Source: Pseudopedobacter saltans DSM 12145 (GTDB lineage: Bacteria; Bacteroidota; Bacteroidia; Sphingobacteriales; Sphingobacteriaceae). From it: DNA of 64,000 nt. Location of the stretch: positions 2,108,001 through 2,172,000 of the forward strand of contig NC_015177.1 in the NCBI RefSeq assembly GCF_000190735.1, written 5' to 3'. A program made the position numbers and the translations under genes. Shown in pieces: positions 29,189-44,016 of this stretch. The notes under the pieces were generated by a model. That model had not been told where the DNA came from. It made no database searches and was given only the letters and a program-made list of their open reading frames with translations. How positions within the stretch are numbered: the stretch's first letter is position 1; each line of letters starts with the position of its first letter.

Positions 29189-30868
29189 ATGAAAAAAAGA
29201 CTTTTACTTTCTTTGGCCTTGCTGGCTACAACAAACTTTACTTTTGCACAGTTTACTCCGGATAAGTTAGTAGTTGTTAAGACTACGCCTACTTCCAACT
29301 CTAATGTTGGCAATGTTTCTTTATTACAAATGAATTTAGATGGAAGTCCCGTGATTGGAGCTGAAGAAACATCTATTCCAACATTCTATATTGGCTTGAC
29401 AGCAAGCACAGTAAATAATGGTATCCTGCGCTTAAGTTCAGACAAAAAATTTTTGACTATGTATGGTCATACAACATTTCCTTCTACTGGCAATTTAGCT
29501 AGCACCACAGATGCAAGAGTAGTCACATTTATAGATGAATTCCAAAGTATAAAAGCACTCCCTACGCCAGTGGTAATACATTCAGGCACTCAGGTTAGAT
29601 CTTGTGTCGCCTACAAAAAGCAAGAGAACATTTATAATATATATTTAAGTGGAGGGAGCACCTCTGCTACTGCAGCATTACAATATGCTGAACTAAATCT
29701 TAGTAACAACACCATTACCAACCCAATTAGAATAGGTGAATACACTGATCCCTCAACAAATAAAATTTCAGGTTTAAATTCTGGTAGCGTGAATATTTTT
29801 AACAATCAGCTTTATGCTGCTACAGGATTAACAGGTGCCACTAATTATCTATTCACAAAAGTAGGCACAGGAATACCTACAGAAGTAACGACAATTAATG
29901 ATCTTAGCGAAACTATCCCGCTAAATACTTTAAAAATACCCGGAGATTTTATTTTCTTTGGTAAAGATTTATTATATATTGCTGATGAATCAGAAGCAAA
30001 ATCCCCTCCCACATTTACTGGAGCTATTTATAAATACTACTCTTTAGACAATGGAGACACTTGGAAATCAGCTGGCAGCATCACATCTCCAATATCAGAT
30101 GATTTAGGTTTCAGAGGTATTGCAGGAAGATTAGAAAACGGCAAAGTCACTTTGTATGCTGTCACCTCGAAATCAAAAGGCAACAGTATTGTTAAAATTG
30201 TCGATGAGACTTCAAAAACTCAAACTATTTCCAATTCTACTGCCGGAATTACAGTGAATATTTTAAGCACTGCTTCTTCTACTGTTGGTTACCGCGGAAT
30301 CAGCTTCACGCCCAATTCTACCATTACCTTACCTGTTTCCTTAAACAGTTTTACAGCAAAAACAGTAAACGGAAACATTGTCATAAACTGGTCTACAGCA
30401 TCAGAGCAAAACAATAAATATTTCGAAATATTACGTTCTACAGATGGCGTTTCGTTTACAAAAATTGGCCAAGTAGCCGGAAAAAACAACTCCAGCTCCT
30501 TGAACCAATACAGCTTCACCGACAACACACCAATTTCGGGTACAAACTACTACCAATTAAAACAAGTAGATATCAACGGAGAATCAGAAACATTTGGTCC
30601 TGTTTCTGCCAAAATAGGCTTTGAAAACAAAAATAATATTAGCGTAATAGATAACGAAGGAAGTATAACGTTTGTAATTACAGCAGATAAAAACACCAAC
30701 TCCAAACTAACAGTAACAGATATCACTGGAAGAACACACTTCTCAAAACAGGTGCAACTGACTCCAGGAAACAATACAATAGCATTGGATAAAAACCTTA
30801 CCAGTGGAATTTATATAGCCAAAATAGTAGGCACTGGTATTTCAATTACTCAGAAATTCAAAAAATAG
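29189..30868 (+). CDS. Secreted protein with type IX secretion C-terminal domain, function unknown
   Basis: 559 residues. Signal peptide MKKRLLLSLALLATTNFTFAQ. Residues about 25-385 form a beta-rich, possibly propeller-like region (repeats such as PGDFIFFGKDLLYIADESE and FRGIAGRLENGKVTLYAVTSKSKGNSIVKIVDE). A fibronectin-like module follows (LNSFTAKTVNGNIVINWSTA ... YYQLKQVDINGESETFGPV). The final ~75 residues are a type A T9SS sorting domain ending SGIYIAKIVGTGISITQKFKK, so the protein should be secreted and anchored at the surface. It is a tandem paralog of the next gene. I do not recognise the N-terminal domain and give no function. Confidence 0.85.
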   Translation: MKKRLLLSLALLATTNFTFAQFTPDKLVVVKTTPTSNSNVGNVSLLQMNLDGSPVIGAEETSIPTFYIGLTASTVNNGILRLSSDKKFLTMYGHTTFPSTGNLASTTDARVVTFIDEFQSIKALPTPVVIHSGTQVRSCVAYKKQENIYNIYLSGGSTSATAALQYAELNLSNNTITNPIRIGEYTDPSTNKISGLNSGSVNIFNNQLYAATGLTGATNYLFTKVGTGIPTEVTTINDLSETIPLNTLKIPGDFIFFGKDLLYIADESEAKSPPTFTGAIYKYYSLDNGDTWKSAGSITSPISDDLGFRGIAGRLENGKVTLYAVTSKSKGNSIVKIVDETSKTQTISNSTAGITVNILSTASSTVGYRGISFTPNSTITLPVSLNSFTAKTVNGNIVINWSTASEQNNKYFEILRSTDGVSFTKIGQVAGKNNSSSLNQYSFTDNTPISGTNYYQLKQVDINGESETFGPVSAKIGFENKNNISVIDNEGSITFVITADKNTNSKLTVTDITGRTHFSKQVQLTPGNNTIALDKNLTSGIYIAKIVGTGISITQKFKK

Positions 30869-30943: not shown

Positions 30944-32551
30944 ATGAAAAAACAATTTGTCTTAGCACTGCTCTCCGCCATTGTTTTAAATAGCTATGCA
31001 CAATTTTCTCCCAACAATTTAATAGTTAGCGAAATAGCAAACAACAATAAAGGAGGCTCCACATTAAATCTATCCATATATGATTTAACAGGAAATCTTA
31101 TAGAATCAAAAGCCCTAGGCAACCAAAACTTCTTTGTAAACGGCACAGCTATAAACGAAGGCCTGTTAACACTATCTACTGATAATAAATTACTCACATT
31201 ATACGGTTATAGCAAAATAACAAGCAATACCGGTGGGCCCGCCAAAGACGATGCTTCAACAACAAACCGTACATTGGCTATTATCAATCAGAATAAAGAA
31301 GAAACCTTCATTAACTTCAATAACACGCATAGCACACAGGCAGCCAAATCAGCCTTAGCTTTTCCATTAGAAAACACCGATTATGGAATTTATTTAGCCG
31401 GTGCAGGAACCGGTACAGCAACAGGAGTGCAATATGTAAGCTACAACCCACAACAGAAGACTACAACAGTGCCAGTTTCCTTGACTAAAGTAAATACACG
31501 ATCCATAAAGGCTTTTAATAATCAATTATATATCAGTTCCTCTTTCGATCCTTCCGGTGGCCCTACACGTCTGTTAAAAGTAGGTAACGGTATACCAAAC
31601 ACAAAAGATCAAACAGCTCTAAATCTGCCTGGAGATGCGATTACTAGCCTAGAAGCACCAGCTGATTTTGTCATGTTCGGAGATGATCTCTTATATATTG
31701 CAGAAGAAAATACCAGTACCGGTGGTATTAAAAAACTTTATTATAATGGCTCCGAATGGATATTATTAGGAATTATTGATTCTGGAGTTGCAAATGATTT
31801 CGGGTTTAAGGCACTAACCGGTAGATTAGAAGATGGAAAAAGGACCTTATATGCTATTACAACAAATAATCTAGGTAATAGCATCGTCAAGATAATTGAC
31901 GAAACAACAAAAGCAGAGAATGTTGAACGTTGTAAAGTAGGTGTACAAGTAAATGTTCTAGCTAGATCTTCGGCCACCACCGGCTTCAGAGGTATTGCCT
32001 TTACGCCACAAAGTGAAGTGAAACTACCTGTGGGCTTAATTTCATTTTCAGCTAAGAATAATCACATTGGTATAATCATCAATTGGAGCACTGCTTTTGA
32101 AAACAACGCTTCTCATTTTACCATTTTAAGATCTTCGGACGGCTCTGCTTTTACTGAAATAGGAAGCATACCTGCAAAAGGTATTGCCGGCTCTTATCAG
32201 TTTCTGGACAAAAATATTCTTAGCGGCACCTATTACTATCAATTAAAACAAATAGATTTAAATGGACGTAATGAATTATTTGGCCCTGTGAAAGCTGCAA
32301 TAGATATCAATAGAAACGAAATAGCAGTTTCGCATCGGGACGGAAAACTCAATATTTCCTCTTTCGTTTTTCTAGCAAATACTAAAATAGAAATTGTGGA
32401 TATGAGCGGTAAAGTTTTGTTTAGCAACACAGCTAACATTCAGCCCGGAATAAACAGCTTTCCTTTAAGTTTAAAACAAAATGGTCTTCTATATAATGTT
32501 AGATTAAACCATAAAGACACTACAATAGCTAAAAAAATCCTTATTGAATAA
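30944..32551 (+). CDS. Second T9SS-type secreted paralog, function unknown
   Basis: 535 residues with signal peptide MKKQFVLALLSAIVLNSYAQ. It shares the whole layout of the preceding gene: the start FSPNNLIVSEIANN, an unusual N-terminal beta domain with PADFVMFGDDLLYIAEE and KALTGRLEDGKRTLYAITTNNLGNSIVKIIDE, a fibronectin-like module (INWSTAFENNASHFTILRSSDGSAFTEIG), and a C-terminal sorting-like domain. The sorting domain is less canonical (NGLLYNVRLNHKDTTIAKKILIE in place of the GIY motif). It evidently arose by duplication and then diverged. It is separated from its partner by a hairpin and 75 bases. Confidence 0.85.
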   Translation: MKKQFVLALLSAIVLNSYAQFSPNNLIVSEIANNNKGGSTLNLSIYDLTGNLIESKALGNQNFFVNGTAINEGLLTLSTDNKLLTLYGYSKITSNTGGPAKDDASTTNRTLAIINQNKEETFINFNNTHSTQAAKSALAFPLENTDYGIYLAGAGTGTATGVQYVSYNPQQKTTTVPVSLTKVNTRSIKAFNNQLYISSSFDPSGGPTRLLKVGNGIPNTKDQTALNLPGDAITSLEAPADFVMFGDDLLYIAEENTSTGGIKKLYYNGSEWILLGIIDSGVANDFGFKALTGRLEDGKRTLYAITTNNLGNSIVKIIDETTKAENVERCKVGVQVNVLARSSATTGFRGIAFTPQSEVKLPVGLISFSAKNNHIGIIINWSTAFENNASHFTILRSSDGSAFTEIGSIPAKGIAGSYQFLDKNILSGTYYYQLKQIDLNGRNELFGPVKAAIDINRNEIAVSHRDGKLNISSFVFLANTKIEIVDMSGKVLFSNTANIQPGINSFPLSLKQNGLLYNVRLNHKDTTIAKKILIE

Positions 32552-32632: not shown

Positions 32633-33493
32633 CTACTTTCCACTTAAAAAACGTTCCTGATGGAATTTCACCAAATCATCTATTGGCGAACGGACAATAT
32701 TCCCCAGCTTCATTCCATACTCTGTTGCCACTTCCTCCAATATATCTTTAAAATTATACGCTACCGAACCAATGCAATTAAAAGAGTATTCCTTATAATT
32801 TGCATATCTGCTTACCAGATTCTTAAAGAACTCCTCAAAAGAAGACTTCACAAGATTTCTCGTATATTCTTTATTTGACTGAACTTCGTAGACAAATTTG
32901 CTAAAGCTGGCACAAAACCTATTAGGTAAAGGTTTTATATAAACATTATCTAAAATCTCGTCTTCGGTTAGTTTAAAAGTATCCCAAAACTCCTTCCTCA
33001 CCTCCGCAGGCATATAACCTCTTATATAATCTCCTAAAAGTTTTTTACCGATATGGCAACCGCTCCCCTCATCACCTAAAATATAAGCCAACGAATCTAT
33101 ATGTTCAACAATATCATTCCCATCATAAATACAAGTATTGGTACCAGTCCCTAAAATTGCAGCAAAACCTTTTTCATTTTTAAGTAAAGCCCTCGCGGCG
33201 GCTAAAAGATCATGTCCAATATCAATTTTAGCATTCACAAAGATCATTTTAAAAGCATCAGAAATTACCTTAGCTTTCTCTTCGTTATGAACACCTGCAC
33301 CATAATAGTTTACCTCTTCAATTTGTTCCAAAGGGAGATCCTTAGGCAAACTTCTCTTTAGAGAATTGTATATATAAGTAGTATCAGAAAAGTAAGGGTT
33401 ATATCCTTCAGTATTGAAAAGCGTCTTATTCTCATTTTTGTCGATAAGGCACCAGCTCGTTTTCGTCGAGCCACCGTCCGCTATAAGTATCAT
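32633..33493 (-). CDS. BadF/BadG-family sugar kinase (N-acetylglucosamine kinase-like)
   Basis: 286 residues of the ASKHA fold. The phosphate-1 loop ADGGSTKTSW is intact. The second half has the phosphate-2 loop GTGTN (AILGTGTNTCIYDG) and the adenosine region DEGSGCHIGKKLLGDYIRG. Bacteroidota members are usually annotated as N-acetylglucosamine kinases; the substrate is not shown by sequence. It would fit use of the amino sugar released from heparan sulfate, but it is about 6 kb from that locus and has its own terminator. It serves as the intact comparison for the degraded paralog at 42163-43014. Confidence 0.85.
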   Translation of the reverse strand: MILIADGGSTKTSWCLIDKNENKTLFNTEGYNPYFSDTTYIYNSLKRSLPKDLPLEQIEEVNYYGAGVHNEEKAKVISDAFKMIFVNAKIDIGHDLLAAARALLKNEKGFAAILGTGTNTCIYDGNDIVEHIDSLAYILGDEGSGCHIGKKLLGDYIRGYMPAEVRKEFWDTFKLTEDEILDNVYIKPLPNRFCASFSKFVYEVQSNKEYTRNLVKSSFEEFFKNLVSRYANYKEYSFNCIGSVAYNFKDILEEVATEYGMKLGNIVRSPIDDLVKFHQERFLSGK

Positions 33494-40348: not shown

Positions 40349-41044
40349 TTAGTCCTTGGAAAAAGACAGCTCGTTTTGGAAATACTTACTATATTTCCTT
40401 CTATCAAATTTATATAATTTTGCCGCCCTGTAAGAAACTCCCTTTTGCTTTTCATCAAGCTCTTTCAAAATATCATAACCCAGAATTTTCTTTCTGAAAT
40501 TCCGTTTGTCTAATTTCTTATTCAGGATGATTTCATAAAGATTCTGCAATTGAGTAAGCGTAAACTTCTCAGGTAATAATTCAAAAGCAAGTGGCTGATA
40601 ACTTATTTTGCTCTTTACACGTTCAAATCCCTTTTCGAAAATACTTTTATGGTCAAAAGCAAGCTCAGGTAATTCTTTAATTGAAACCCAGGAAGCATTT
40701 TTTGCATATGCCGTAACCGGTCTTAATTCTTTGGGATTCGTCAATCTGATCATAGCAAAATAAGCAACAGTAATAATCCTTCCTTTTGGATGTCTTCCTA
40801 AATCTCCAAAAGTATAGAACTGTTCCATGTAAATTCCTTTAAGACCAGTTAGCTCATAAAGCACCCTTTCTGCAGCTGTATCAATGCTTTCATCATTATT
40901 CACCATATTCCCTGGCAAAGCAAACCAGTCCCCATATGGATCCTGATTCCTCTCGATCAATAAGATCTTCAGTTCTCCTTCATCAAAAGCAAAAATCACA
41001 CAGTCGACAGAAAAAATCGAATTTAAATGTGGTAAATACGTCAA
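40349..41044 (-). CDS. Nudix-related transcriptional regulator (NrtR/AraR type)
   Basis: 231 residues. The N-terminal Nudix-like domain (about 1-140) has a degraded Nudix box: GNMVNNDESIDTAAERVLYELTGL lacks two of the metal-binding Glu (REUxEE is RVLYEL here). The C-terminal winged helix reads FTLTQLQNLYEIILNKKLDKRNFRKKIL, the form found in NrtR and AraR regulators. It is therefore more likely a DNA-binding sensor of a sugar or nucleotide than an enzyme. It has no ATG in a suitable place; the start appears to be TTG at 41044, with ATT or ATC just upstream as other options. It is divergent from the pfkA operon, which it may control. Confidence 0.82.
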   Translation of the reverse strand: MTYLPHLNSIFSVDCVIFAFDEGELKILLIERNQDPYGDWFALPGNMVNNDESIDTAAERVLYELTGLKGIYMEQFYTFGDLGRHPKGRIITVAYFAMIRLTNPKELRPVTAYAKNASWVSIKELPELAFDHKSIFEKGFERVKSKISYQPLAFELLPEKFTLTQLQNLYEIILNKKLDKRNFRKKILGYDILKELDEKQKGVSYRAAKLYKFDRRKYSKYFQNELSFSKD

Positions 41045-41135: not shown

Positions 41136-41181
41136 GTATATTAGTAAACCCAAAACAAAACAAATTTTTCTCTATAATTTG

Positions 41182-42162
41182 ATGTCTAAAATAAAAAAAA
41201 TAGCAGTATTTACCTCAGGAGGCGACGCACCAGGCATGAATGCTTGTATAAGAGCTGTTGTGAGAACAGGAATACATTTCGGTTGCGAAATGGTAGGAAT
41301 AAAACAAGGTTATCAGGGTATGATAGACAAGAATTTTATTCCTATGAATAGATATTCTGTTAGCAACATCATGCAATTGGGTGGAACTATCCTTAAAACT
41401 GCTCGTTGTTTAGAGTTTAAGACCGAAGAAGGGCAACAAAAAGCTTATAACAATTTAAAAGAAGCCGGTATAGATGCTTTGGTTGCAATTGGCGGTGACG
41501 GAACTTTTACAGGAGCAGAAAGATTATCTAAGAAATTCGACATTCCCGTAATCTGTGTACCAGGAACAATTGACAACGATTTATACGGAACCGATTTTAC
41601 TTTAGGTTTTGATACAGCCACAAATACAGTAATTGAGGCTATTGACAAAATCAGAGATACAGCAGAATCGCATGACAGATTATTCTTTATTGAAGTAATG
41701 GGCAGAGATGCTGGCTGTATCGCACTTAGAGCCGGAATTGCTGGTGGCGCAGAAGCTATTTTATTACCCGAGAAAGCTACCGCTATAGATGATTTGATTA
41801 CCACATTGGAAGATGGTGCAAAAAATTCCAAATCATCAAGTATAGTTATCATAGCCGAAGGTGATAAAAATGGCGGTGCATATAATGTAGCACAAAAAGT
41901 AAAAGAAAAAATTAGCTACTTCGACACAAAAGTTACTATCTTAGGCCACTTACAAAGAGGCGGCAGCCCAAGTAGTTTTGATAGGATTTTGGGAAGTAGA
42001 ATGGGCTTTGCAGCTGTTAAAGCAATTCTTGCCGGAGAAACTCGTAAAATGGTCGGTCTAAAAGGAAACAATATCAGTTTCACTGACTTAGAAGAATCTA
42101 TTACGAGACATGACTTTAAACTGGAAGATGACTTAATGGAAATGTCAACCATATTAGCGTAA
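41182..42162 (+). CDS. pfkA: ATP-dependent 6-phosphofructokinase
   Basis: 326 residues from the ATG at 41182 (the preceding TTG is ignored). The N-terminus has FTSGGDAPGMNA. The nucleotide motif is AIGGDGTFTGAERL; Gly after GGD favours ATP over pyrophosphate. The catalytic motif is PGTIDNDLYGTDFTLGFDTA, and EVMGRDAGCIAL binds fructose 6-phosphate. It commits hexose phosphate to glycolysis. Its stop codon is directly followed by the ATG of the BadF-like gene (no gap), then gap, which shows a glycolytic operon. Confidence 0.95.
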   Translation: MSKIKKIAVFTSGGDAPGMNACIRAVVRTGIHFGCEMVGIKQGYQGMIDKNFIPMNRYSVSNIMQLGGTILKTARCLEFKTEEGQQKAYNNLKEAGIDALVAIGGDGTFTGAERLSKKFDIPVICVPGTIDNDLYGTDFTLGFDTATNTVIEAIDKIRDTAESHDRLFFIEVMGRDAGCIALRAGIAGGAEAILLPEKATAIDDLITTLEDGAKNSKSSSIVIIAEGDKNGGAYNVAQKVKEKISYFDTKVTILGHLQRGGSPSSFDRILGSRMGFAAVKAILAGETRKMVGLKGNNISFTDLEESITRHDFKLEDDLMEMSTILA

Positions 42163-43014
42163 ATGATAGCTGTTGTTTATAGTGGATCGAGGTTTGCACA
42201 TTGGAAAATTGCAGACAAGGACAAAGAAGTTATAGACATTCGAACACAGGGAATAAATCCGTTCTTTAATGACGAGAAGTATATTCTTAATCTTTTAAAC
42301 AAGAACATTAAATTTATTCATAACGCCGAAAAAGTTAAGAAAATATACTTCTTTGGTGCCGGAGCAACTTCTAAAGCTAGAAATAGCATTATCCATGATG
42401 CCTTTTCTAAATTTTTCAGATACAGTAAAATTTTTGTTTATCACGATCTGGAAGCTGCAGCCAAAGCCACTTGCGATGACAACCCGGGAATAGTTTGCAT
42501 TATGGGAAGCGGATCTAATGCCGCTTATTTTGACGGAAAGAAAATTACCGAAAATAATTATGGCCTTGGATATGCCATAGCCGATGAAGGATCTGCAAAT
42601 TGGTTGGGTAAAATACTAATTAAACAGTATTTAACAAATACATTACCCGCTGATTTTCGGAAGATCTTCAATAAAAAATATGATTTAGACAAAAGATCTG
42701 TATTAGATAAGGTATATAAACAAGCTCATCCTAATCTTTTTCTTAGTTCTTTTGTAGATTTGCTGTTAGAAAATAAAAGTCATGCATTCGTGAAGGATTT
42801 TGTAAAGAAAGGATTTTCGATTTTTATGGAAACTTACCTGGTTCCTTTACGAGAACAATACGGAGAGCAGTTACCTATACATTTTGTAGGAACTGTATCT
42901 GCAAATTTTGAAGATTACTTAATAGAAGTGGCTCAAGAAAAAAAAATAGAGATCAAATCTGTTTTAAAAGAGCCCATTTATAACTTATTGAATTATTACG
43001 CAAATAAAAATTAA
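42163..43014 (+). CDS. BadF/BadG-like ASKHA protein with degraded phosphate-1 loop
   Basis: 283 residues, clearly paralogous to the kinase at 32633-33493 in length and order of motifs. The second half keeps the phosphate-2-like GSGSN (CIMGSGSNAAYFDG) and DEGSANWLGK. The first loop is changed: where the paralog has ADGGSTKTSW this protein has VYSGSRFAHW, so the Asp that binds metal-phosphate and the Lys are gone. Catalysis as a kinase is doubtful; a sugar- or nucleotide-sensing role is possible. It is locked between pfkA (0 bases) and gap (6 bases), which suggests a job in glycolysis. I do not know of a tested function. Confidence 0.8.
   Translation: MIAVVYSGSRFAHWKIADKDKEVIDIRTQGINPFFNDEKYILNLLNKNIKFIHNAEKVKKIYFFGAGATSKARNSIIHDAFSKFFRYSKIFVYHDLEAAAKATCDDNPGIVCIMGSGSNAAYFDGKKITENNYGLGYAIADEGSANWLGKILIKQYLTNTLPADFRKIFNKKYDLDKRSVLDKVYKQAHPNLFLSSFVDLLLENKSHAFVKDFVKKGFSIFMETYLVPLREQYGEQLPIHFVGTVSANFEDYLIEVAQEKKIEIKSVLKEPIYNLLNYYANKN

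Positions 43015-44016
<1,002 letters not shown>

Follow-up and report, generated by a model that had tools for sequence, protein, structure and literature searches.

Within the window, a 64,000-nucleotide stretch of the genome of the soil bacterium Pseudopedobacter saltans DSM 12145, a kinase-like gene lies between two glycolytic genes, pfkA and gap, and its product lacks the phosphate loop of the kinases that it resembles. What might such a protein do in a glycolytic operon? The product of this open reading frame (42163-43014) is called PK here, and its residues are given in MurK numbering. The first-pass annotation of this DNA suggested a pseudokinase that senses a glycolytic sugar phosphate or controls PfkA; no paper on PK appeared among the open-access PMC papers listed. 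The features considered are as follows.

32633..33493, minus strand: intact paralogue used for comparison in the first-pass annotation; clade B, grouping with MurK (alignment and trees)
40349..41044, minus strand: divergent NrtR/AraR-type Nudix transcription factor (winged helix and Nudix domains)
41179..42162, plus strand: pfkA, ATP-dependent 6-phosphofructokinase, ATG at 41182 (open reading frame and profile matches)
42163..43014, plus strand: PK, 283-aa pseudokinase with the MurK/NAGK (BadF/BcrAD-like) sugar kinase fold (homology, loop counts and model)
42178..42195, plus strand: lost phosphate-1 loop of PK, residues 6-11, YSGSRF (kinase form DSGSTK/DGGSTK; orthologue counts)
42445..42447, plus strand: retained codon of the catalytic and sugar-clamp Asp95 (138/138 orthologues)
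42505..42519, plus strand: phosphate-2 loop GSGSN, residues 115-119, with Thr116 changed to Ser and the sugar-binding Asn119 kept (orthologue counts)
42553..42600, plus strand: residues 131-146, NNYGLGYAIADEGSAN, with PK-specific conserved Asn131, Asn132, Tyr/Phe133 and Asn146 around the sugar ligand Asp141 (orthologue counts)
43021..44016, plus strand: gap, type I glyceraldehyde-3-phosphate dehydrogenase (open reading frame and profile matches)

The tight packing described at first holds, as do the frame and coordinates of PK. The pfkA stop codon (42160-42162) is followed with a gap of 0 bases by the PK ATG at 42163, and the PK stop codon (43012-43014) lies 6 bases from the gap ATG at 43021. 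Across Sphingobacteriaceae, 139 PK loci were collected, comprising the window copy, 135 from other family genomes and three Sphingobacterium contigs; a single-protein search of genome contigs gave three loci only. In 137 of the 139, pfkA is upstream (spacing -4 to 125 bases, median 3), and gap is downstream in all 139 (1 to 205 bases, median 6). The frameshifted copy of genome G108 (L032) was excluded, and merging one identical sequence left 138 distinct orthologues. The fetched loci were read and the remaining genomes were judged by score. On the best scores among the matches listed (1.1e-81 or better for presence, 3.7e-64 or worse for absence), PK is present in 178 of 201 sampled family genomes, counting the G108 copy, and absent in 23. 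Four PK-less genomes gave zero matches at E 1e-20, three of them being 60-85% complete.

The P. saltans genome (4,635,236 bases, one contig) encodes three further PK homologues at 31-33% identity. The PK N-terminus, MIAVVYSGSRFAHW, pairs gap-free with MILIADGGSTKTSW of the paralogue at 32633-33493, and 92 of 283 positions (33%) are identical between the two. This paralogue is indeed intact, as first described; it is not the nearest relative, being a MurK-like clade B kinase, and the intact clade A, with its own copy in this genome (G000:C1:2986317-2987153), is closer to PK in trees. In the same part of the window, 29189-30868 and 30944-32551 form a tandem pair whose products, 559 and 535 aa long, are similar and look secreted. 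The C-terminal parts of both resemble a type IX secretion sorting domain.

A sugar kinase fold and its ATP site

An AlphaFold2 model of PK from 72 aligned sequences has a mean pLDDT of 92.9 and a pTM of 0.89, with the weakest block at residues 131-140 (mean 65). Its best structural matches by VIA-align are K1058 (Z 35.2), PG1100 (Z 35.0) and MurK (Z 34.8), in a list that is a rescoring of Foldseek matches, so that families missing from it may still match. The model superimposes on 8oqw (MurK) over 274 residues at 1.7 A, and on 8oqk with Z 35.2; along with matches to 8oqw by phmmer (E 2.2e-46) and to 1zbs by Foldseek (E 1.2e-28), this places PK among proteins of the MurK/NAGK type by homology and fold. 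MurK and K1058 of Tannerella forsythia (8oqw, 8ow9, 8oqk, 8ow7) and the structural-genomics entries 1zbs and 1zxo have the full-length fold in common with PK, at 30-32% identity, and share with it the sugar-contact residues and the catalytic Asp. Kinase activity has been measured for both MurK and K1058 (PMC10465942, sections 8 and 9).

Profile models place PK less clearly. Its score against Pfam PF01869 (BcrAD_BadFG) is 18.4 bits, below the gathering cut-off of 31.5, but the intact paralogue (28.2), a clade A kinase (27.7) and an outside kinase (23.6) also fall below, and the profile discriminates little. Similarly, PK reaches 28.5 bits against a curated cut-off of 370 for NCBIfam NF046058 (NagK_SO3507), and the three intact relatives tested are also below it. 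ROK-family repressors, such as Lmo0178 (5f7r), have an actin-like fold in common with PK (Z 16.1), and the ROK family includes both sugar kinases and sugar-operon repressors, as passages of PMC4856308 and PMC2742894 describe. Unlike these repressors, PK has no N-terminal DNA-binding domain and no Pfam match to a ROK profile at E up to 1. No extra DNA-binding domain was seen within its 283 aa, and the model aligns end to end with single-fold kinases.

The DxGxT phosphate-1 loop of MurK/NAGK-type kinases, present in MurK, is absent from PK. The first-pass annotation had seen the loss of its Asp and Lys in the window copy and proposed aligning orthologues; across Sphingobacteriaceae the loss is fixed, with Asp6, Thr10 or Lys11 in none of the 138 distinct orthologues and a restored loop in 0/139 loci. 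PK is thus no lone broken gene, and the first description, correct as it was, understated the case. Position 6 is Tyr in 116 and Phe in 22; position 10 is Arg in 86, Lys in 23, Asn in 20, His in 5, Tyr in 3 and Asp in 1; and position 11 is Tyr in 48, Phe in 30, Asn in 26, Thr in 14, His in 11 and other residues in 9. The GSGSN phosphate-2 loop, said at first to remain, does so in its Asn119 (131/138) and not as a whole. All 89 intact relatives have Thr116, as MurK does; of the 138 PK sequences, 137 have Ser at this position and one has Gly. An aromatic residue (Phe or Tyr) at the adenine-stacking position 244, which along with Thr116 marks MurK/NAGK-type kinases, occurs in 11/138 PK sequences as against 83/89 intact relatives, and is Ala in the window copy. 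Gly145 is kept in 22/138, with Ala, Ser or Thr in the other 116, and the Ala195 position is Ser or Thr in 123.

Column entropy in PK minus that in the 89 intact relatives is +0.44 for ATP contacts and -0.32 for all columns, the latter drop being expected of one family. Among column sets drawn at random, a fraction of 0.00015 show as much relaxation as the ATP set, and a permutation of ATP against sugar labels yields p 0.012; the ATP set includes Asp6, which is absent from the contact list of the MurK paper, and p is 0.014 without it. PK and the intact kinases have the same consensus residue at 9 of 11 sugar contacts and 6 of 18 ATP positions. By its residues, the ATP-binding half of PK is lost and the adenine pocket eroded, and PK would be unable to phosphorylate a sugar.

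The sugar site and selection

The ligand contacts of MurK and the role of its D95 (PMC10465942, section 8) served as the reference for the sugar side. The catalytic Asp95, in the motif YHDLEAA, is kept in 138/138 PK orthologues, as are Gly67 and Asp141, while Asn32 is kept in 137, Ser9 in 135 and Asn119 in 131; PK therefore retains the set of Asp95, Asn32, Gly67, Asn119 and Asp141 that MurK/NAGK-type kinases carry. The 11 listed sugar contacts differ in entropy from intact relatives by -0.21, near the all-column background of -0.32. They are merely not relaxed, and an earlier idea that they are tighter in PK was dropped.

Other parts of the pocket are looser. Seven further sugar-pocket residues are relaxed in PK (entropy +0.28), and the contrast between ATP and sugar positions weakens to p 0.032 when they are added to the sugar set. 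Phe35, one of these seven, is F in 88, L in 23 and I in 14 PK sequences, and the listed contact at position 34 is Y in 62, F in 48 and C in 19. Since these residues of the N-acetyl pocket are loose, the ligand of PK may not be GlcNAc or MurNAc; it may be a different one, or PK may bind sugar weakly. A basic residue (R or K) occupies position 10, where a phosphate could sit, in 109/138, and Asn, His, Tyr or Asp does so otherwise. On these counts the sugar site appears largely intact, and PK probably binds a sugar.

PK is not decaying, because its median dN/dS is 0.050. This is about twice the values of its neighbours, pfkA (0.025) and gap (0.026), from 30 non-overlapping pairs tried, of which those with dS under 2 were used (20 for PK, 20 for pfkA and 28 for gap). 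The frame is open over 280-285 aa in 139 of 140 loci, the 140th being that of G108, where the frame slips by one base at a T run, in a single-contig genome that is also missing clade A; sequencing error is possible there. A decaying pseudogene riding in a highly expressed operon could explain this frameshift and the seven loci of genera g22, g5 and g8 in which no PK lies between pfkA and gap. Such a reading is contradicted by the selection test, as well as by the open frames and the near-invariant polar sugar contacts, and can be given almost no credence.

Origin of PK and the intact clade A kinase

PK forms one clade, with support of 100/100, in both kinase trees, which are unrooted and include 36 and 12 PK rows after thinning. 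Next to it stand clade A and kinases from other families of Bacteroidia; clade A (query L246), with the f22 and f48 kinases, provides its nearest intact relatives. In the first seventeen outside loci examined, position 6 is Asp or Glu and the next residues are SGSTK. For gene order outside the family, 80 genomes were picked for good kinase scores, 72 of them with pfkA at E 1e-60 or better. An intact-loop kinase lies on the same strand within 1.8 kb of pfkA in 15 of these 72 outside Bacteroidia genomes, a proportion that describes a selected sample and not a class-wide rate. Six of the kinases are directly behind pfkA (up to 125 bases), two have gap between and seven have about 1.65-1.72 kb between; all 15 carry DSGSTK. 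In the other selected genomes, kinase and pfkA are 10 kb or more apart on one contig in six and on different contigs in 51, from listed coordinates of mostly draft assemblies. The intervening open reading frame was read in three of the seven spaced cases (L221, L224 and L227, from other families), and we take these three to resemble non-phosphorylating glyceraldehyde-3-phosphate dehydrogenases. One that was tested is an aldehyde dehydrogenase by Pfam, with 0 of 25 NCBIfam models listed reaching the cut-off.

Because intact kinases sit beside pfkA well outside the family, the simplest view of PK is as a descendant whose ATP site was lost in place, and the outside loops likely show the direction of change. 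The first-pass annotation had held that orthologues with a restored loop at this place would speak against it; the family holds none, and the intact loops beside pfkA, being outside it, are not counted as a refutation. In the order of duplication and loss that we infer from these sequences, a sugar kinase able to sit in the pfkA operon in other Bacteroidia would have given rise to two descendants in Sphingobacteriaceae. The intact clade A would have come to be encoded elsewhere in the genome, and PK would have stayed between pfkA and gap, losing the Mg-ATP site and keeping the core of the sugar site.

Clade A co-occurs with PK and, unlike it, keeps Asp6 (41/41), Thr116, Gly145 and Tyr/Phe244. 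On the best scores among the matches listed (7.9e-93 or better for presence, 6.6e-74 or worse for absence), it is present in 172 of the 201 family genomes, all of which have PK, and absent in 29. All 23 PK-less genomes are also without it, and six genomes have a PK gene without clade A: G140 (99% complete), G108 (PK frameshifted), and G008, G009, G085 and G129 (71-92% complete). An rpoB tree of 63 family and four outside genomes (quick search, SH-aLRT only; without G085, G009, G049, G070, G080, G023, G043 and G079) has the PK-less genera g11, g24, g5 and g8 branching first, so that these may never have had the pair. The later PK absences are g22, g6 and G056, which with the break in G108 make four secondary losses. 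In g6 and G056 a pfkA copy only was found, at 57-60% identity, with no gap gene seen beside it. A sign test of co-loss gives p 0.25, and co-loss was rejected as statistical proof of a pair, the independent events being too few. Among PK-less genomes, g11 and g23 keep an outside-type kinase, and g5, g6, g8, g22 and genome G056 have clade B only.

The clade A copy of the window genome itself (L002:1492-2340:-) is eroding, with the loop DGGSAVT and changes at positions 10, 11, 140, 195 and 241; the residues usual at 140, 195 and 241 are kept by 41, 40 and 38 of the 41 other clade A sequences. This counts against a reading of PK and clade A as a pair. The gene 5 bases before this copy looks like that of a response regulator. 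Some of the eight clade A loci that were read have an adjacent gene that we take to be response-regulator-like and one that we take to be outer-membrane efflux-like.

Possible roles of a probably non-phosphorylating protein

A non-phosphorylating, sugar-binding switch, the regulatory member of a kinase pair that arose by duplication, has in our judgement a little better than an even chance of being what PK is. Behind this reading stand the conserved loss, the retained polar sugar residues, purifying selection, the operon position and the single clade, all of them apparent in the sequences. In MurK it is the sugar, not ATP, whose binding brings the two domains together and makes the dimer interface tighter. 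By closing in the same way, PK would signal the presence of a hexose or amino sugar, or its 6-phosphate, to a partner, while being made in step with PfkA and GAPDH. Active clade A, in a regulatory heterodimer, would be the likeliest single partner, followed by a PK homodimer acting on PfkA, GAPDH or the Nudix regulator; the choice of partner is tentative.

An obligate heterodimer of PK and clade A, in which PK is the sugar-sensing, non-catalytic protomer and expression of the glycolytic genes determines the allosteric state of a (hexos)amine kinase whose gene lies elsewhere, is a speculative form of this idea and one that we would expect to prove wrong sooner than right. According to PMC10465942 (section 7), sugar drives closure of MurK and a gain of interface. 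Asp37 (134/138), Asn131 (133/138) and Asn132 (135/138) are near-invariant in PK and variable in kinases, and they fall in segments that this paper names as interface. The same contrast between PK and kinases is seen at Tyr225 (130/138) and Pro228 (132/138), which the model places close to where the helix preceding the last loop ends. Clade A has invariants of its own in or beside the 70-73 loop: Pro70, Asp71 and Glu74, each in 41/41. These residues would fit a remodelled dimer, whether homo- or heterodimeric. If the heterodimer is real, it would be a bacterial sugar-kinase and pseudokinase pair whose regulatory subunit is embedded in a glycolytic operon.

Three other accounts of PK bear on the same evidence. 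One, going back to the first-pass annotation, makes PK a dedicated regulator of PfkA that would bind a sugar or sugar phosphate of glycolysis and act on the enzyme through direct contact. The near-constant order and tight spacing of pfkA, PK and gap would agree with this, as would the R or K at position 10 in 109/138 sequences. PK and gap nevertheless persist without a linked pfkA in G067 (L139) and in the 76% complete G008 (L087), whose pfkA copies elsewhere are 62% and 55% identical to that of the window, and pfkA and gap stand together without PK in seven loci of g5, g8 and g22. At the positions that we take to form the effector site of E. coli-type PfkA, R54 is mostly changed in every group, and K211 is changed also in the PK-less g5, g8 and g22; no PK-specific change was seen between linked and PK-less genera at the effector, F6P or ATP positions examined. 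What survives of the original proposal is a pseudokinase that is fixed, selected and linked to pfkA and gap. Control of PfkA has so far found no backing, and although a direct role is possible, we regard a dedicated regulator as unlikely. The L139 copy of PK has a still more altered loop, YSDSDG.

PK might instead act as a co-sensor with the divergent Nudix regulator, tuning expression of the operon, which this regulator probably controls. A homologue adjoins the operon in 136/139 PK loci, mostly with only its first part within the fetched flank; among solved structures the regulator is closest to AraR (5bs6, E 2.6e-57), described in PMC4666351 as an NrtR-family regulator of arabinose use. The regulator, however, also adjoins pfkA and gap in six of seven PK-less loci examined, and PK remains in L087, L139 and L112, where no regulator match was seen. 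To our knowledge, regulators of the AraR type need no partner. Taken together, this makes a co-sensor quite improbable. Much the same holds for a PK that is still an enzyme, whether as a kinase whose site for the nucleotide or phosphate donor has diverged or as a catalyst of a different sugar reaction. Strong selection and the near-invariant Asp95 and polar sugar contacts speak for it, and Asp95 is double-edged for the switch, since a genuine kinase would also need it. Against it, Asp6, Thr10, Lys11 and Thr116 are lost in 138/138, Gly145 is left in 22 and the aromatic 244 in 11, and no consistent replacement for the donor site is seen, with position 10 being R, K, N, H, Y or D. Continued catalysis is a decidedly doubtful explanation.

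A comparison for the switch comes from yeast. The kinase fold of Gal3 is unrelated to that of PK, and Gal3 still binds ATP, whereas PK seems to have lost its ATP site. The likeness lies in a duplicated sugar kinase split into one enzyme and one regulator (PMC3048525): Gal3 is a galactokinase paralogue that acts as a co-inducer, and PK would be the corresponding regulator.

The family provides a natural experiment, in which a sugar kinase of a glycolytic operon lost its ATP site apparently once, for most of the family, with the core of the sugar site under strong selection despite that loss. If PK is a switch, a sugar-sensing protein belongs to the glycolysis of Sphingobacteriaceae, and it would be wrong to enter it as a kinase in metabolic models; automatic annotation may well call PK a kinase or an ATPase. 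The switch reading predicts sugar binding without ATP binding, and it names specific residues and candidate partners.

The gene downstream of PK varies in kind within genus g14, part of which (L043, L045-L047, L141-L148, L151-L156 and L158) has a PK-adjacent gap of another type. This gap has 74-77% identity to that of the window, compared with 88-89% in L140, L149, L150 and L157, as if it had been replaced in place. An obligate pair of PK and GAPDH was considered and set aside: gap adjoins PK in 139/139 loci, yet PK stays beside the differing g14 type.
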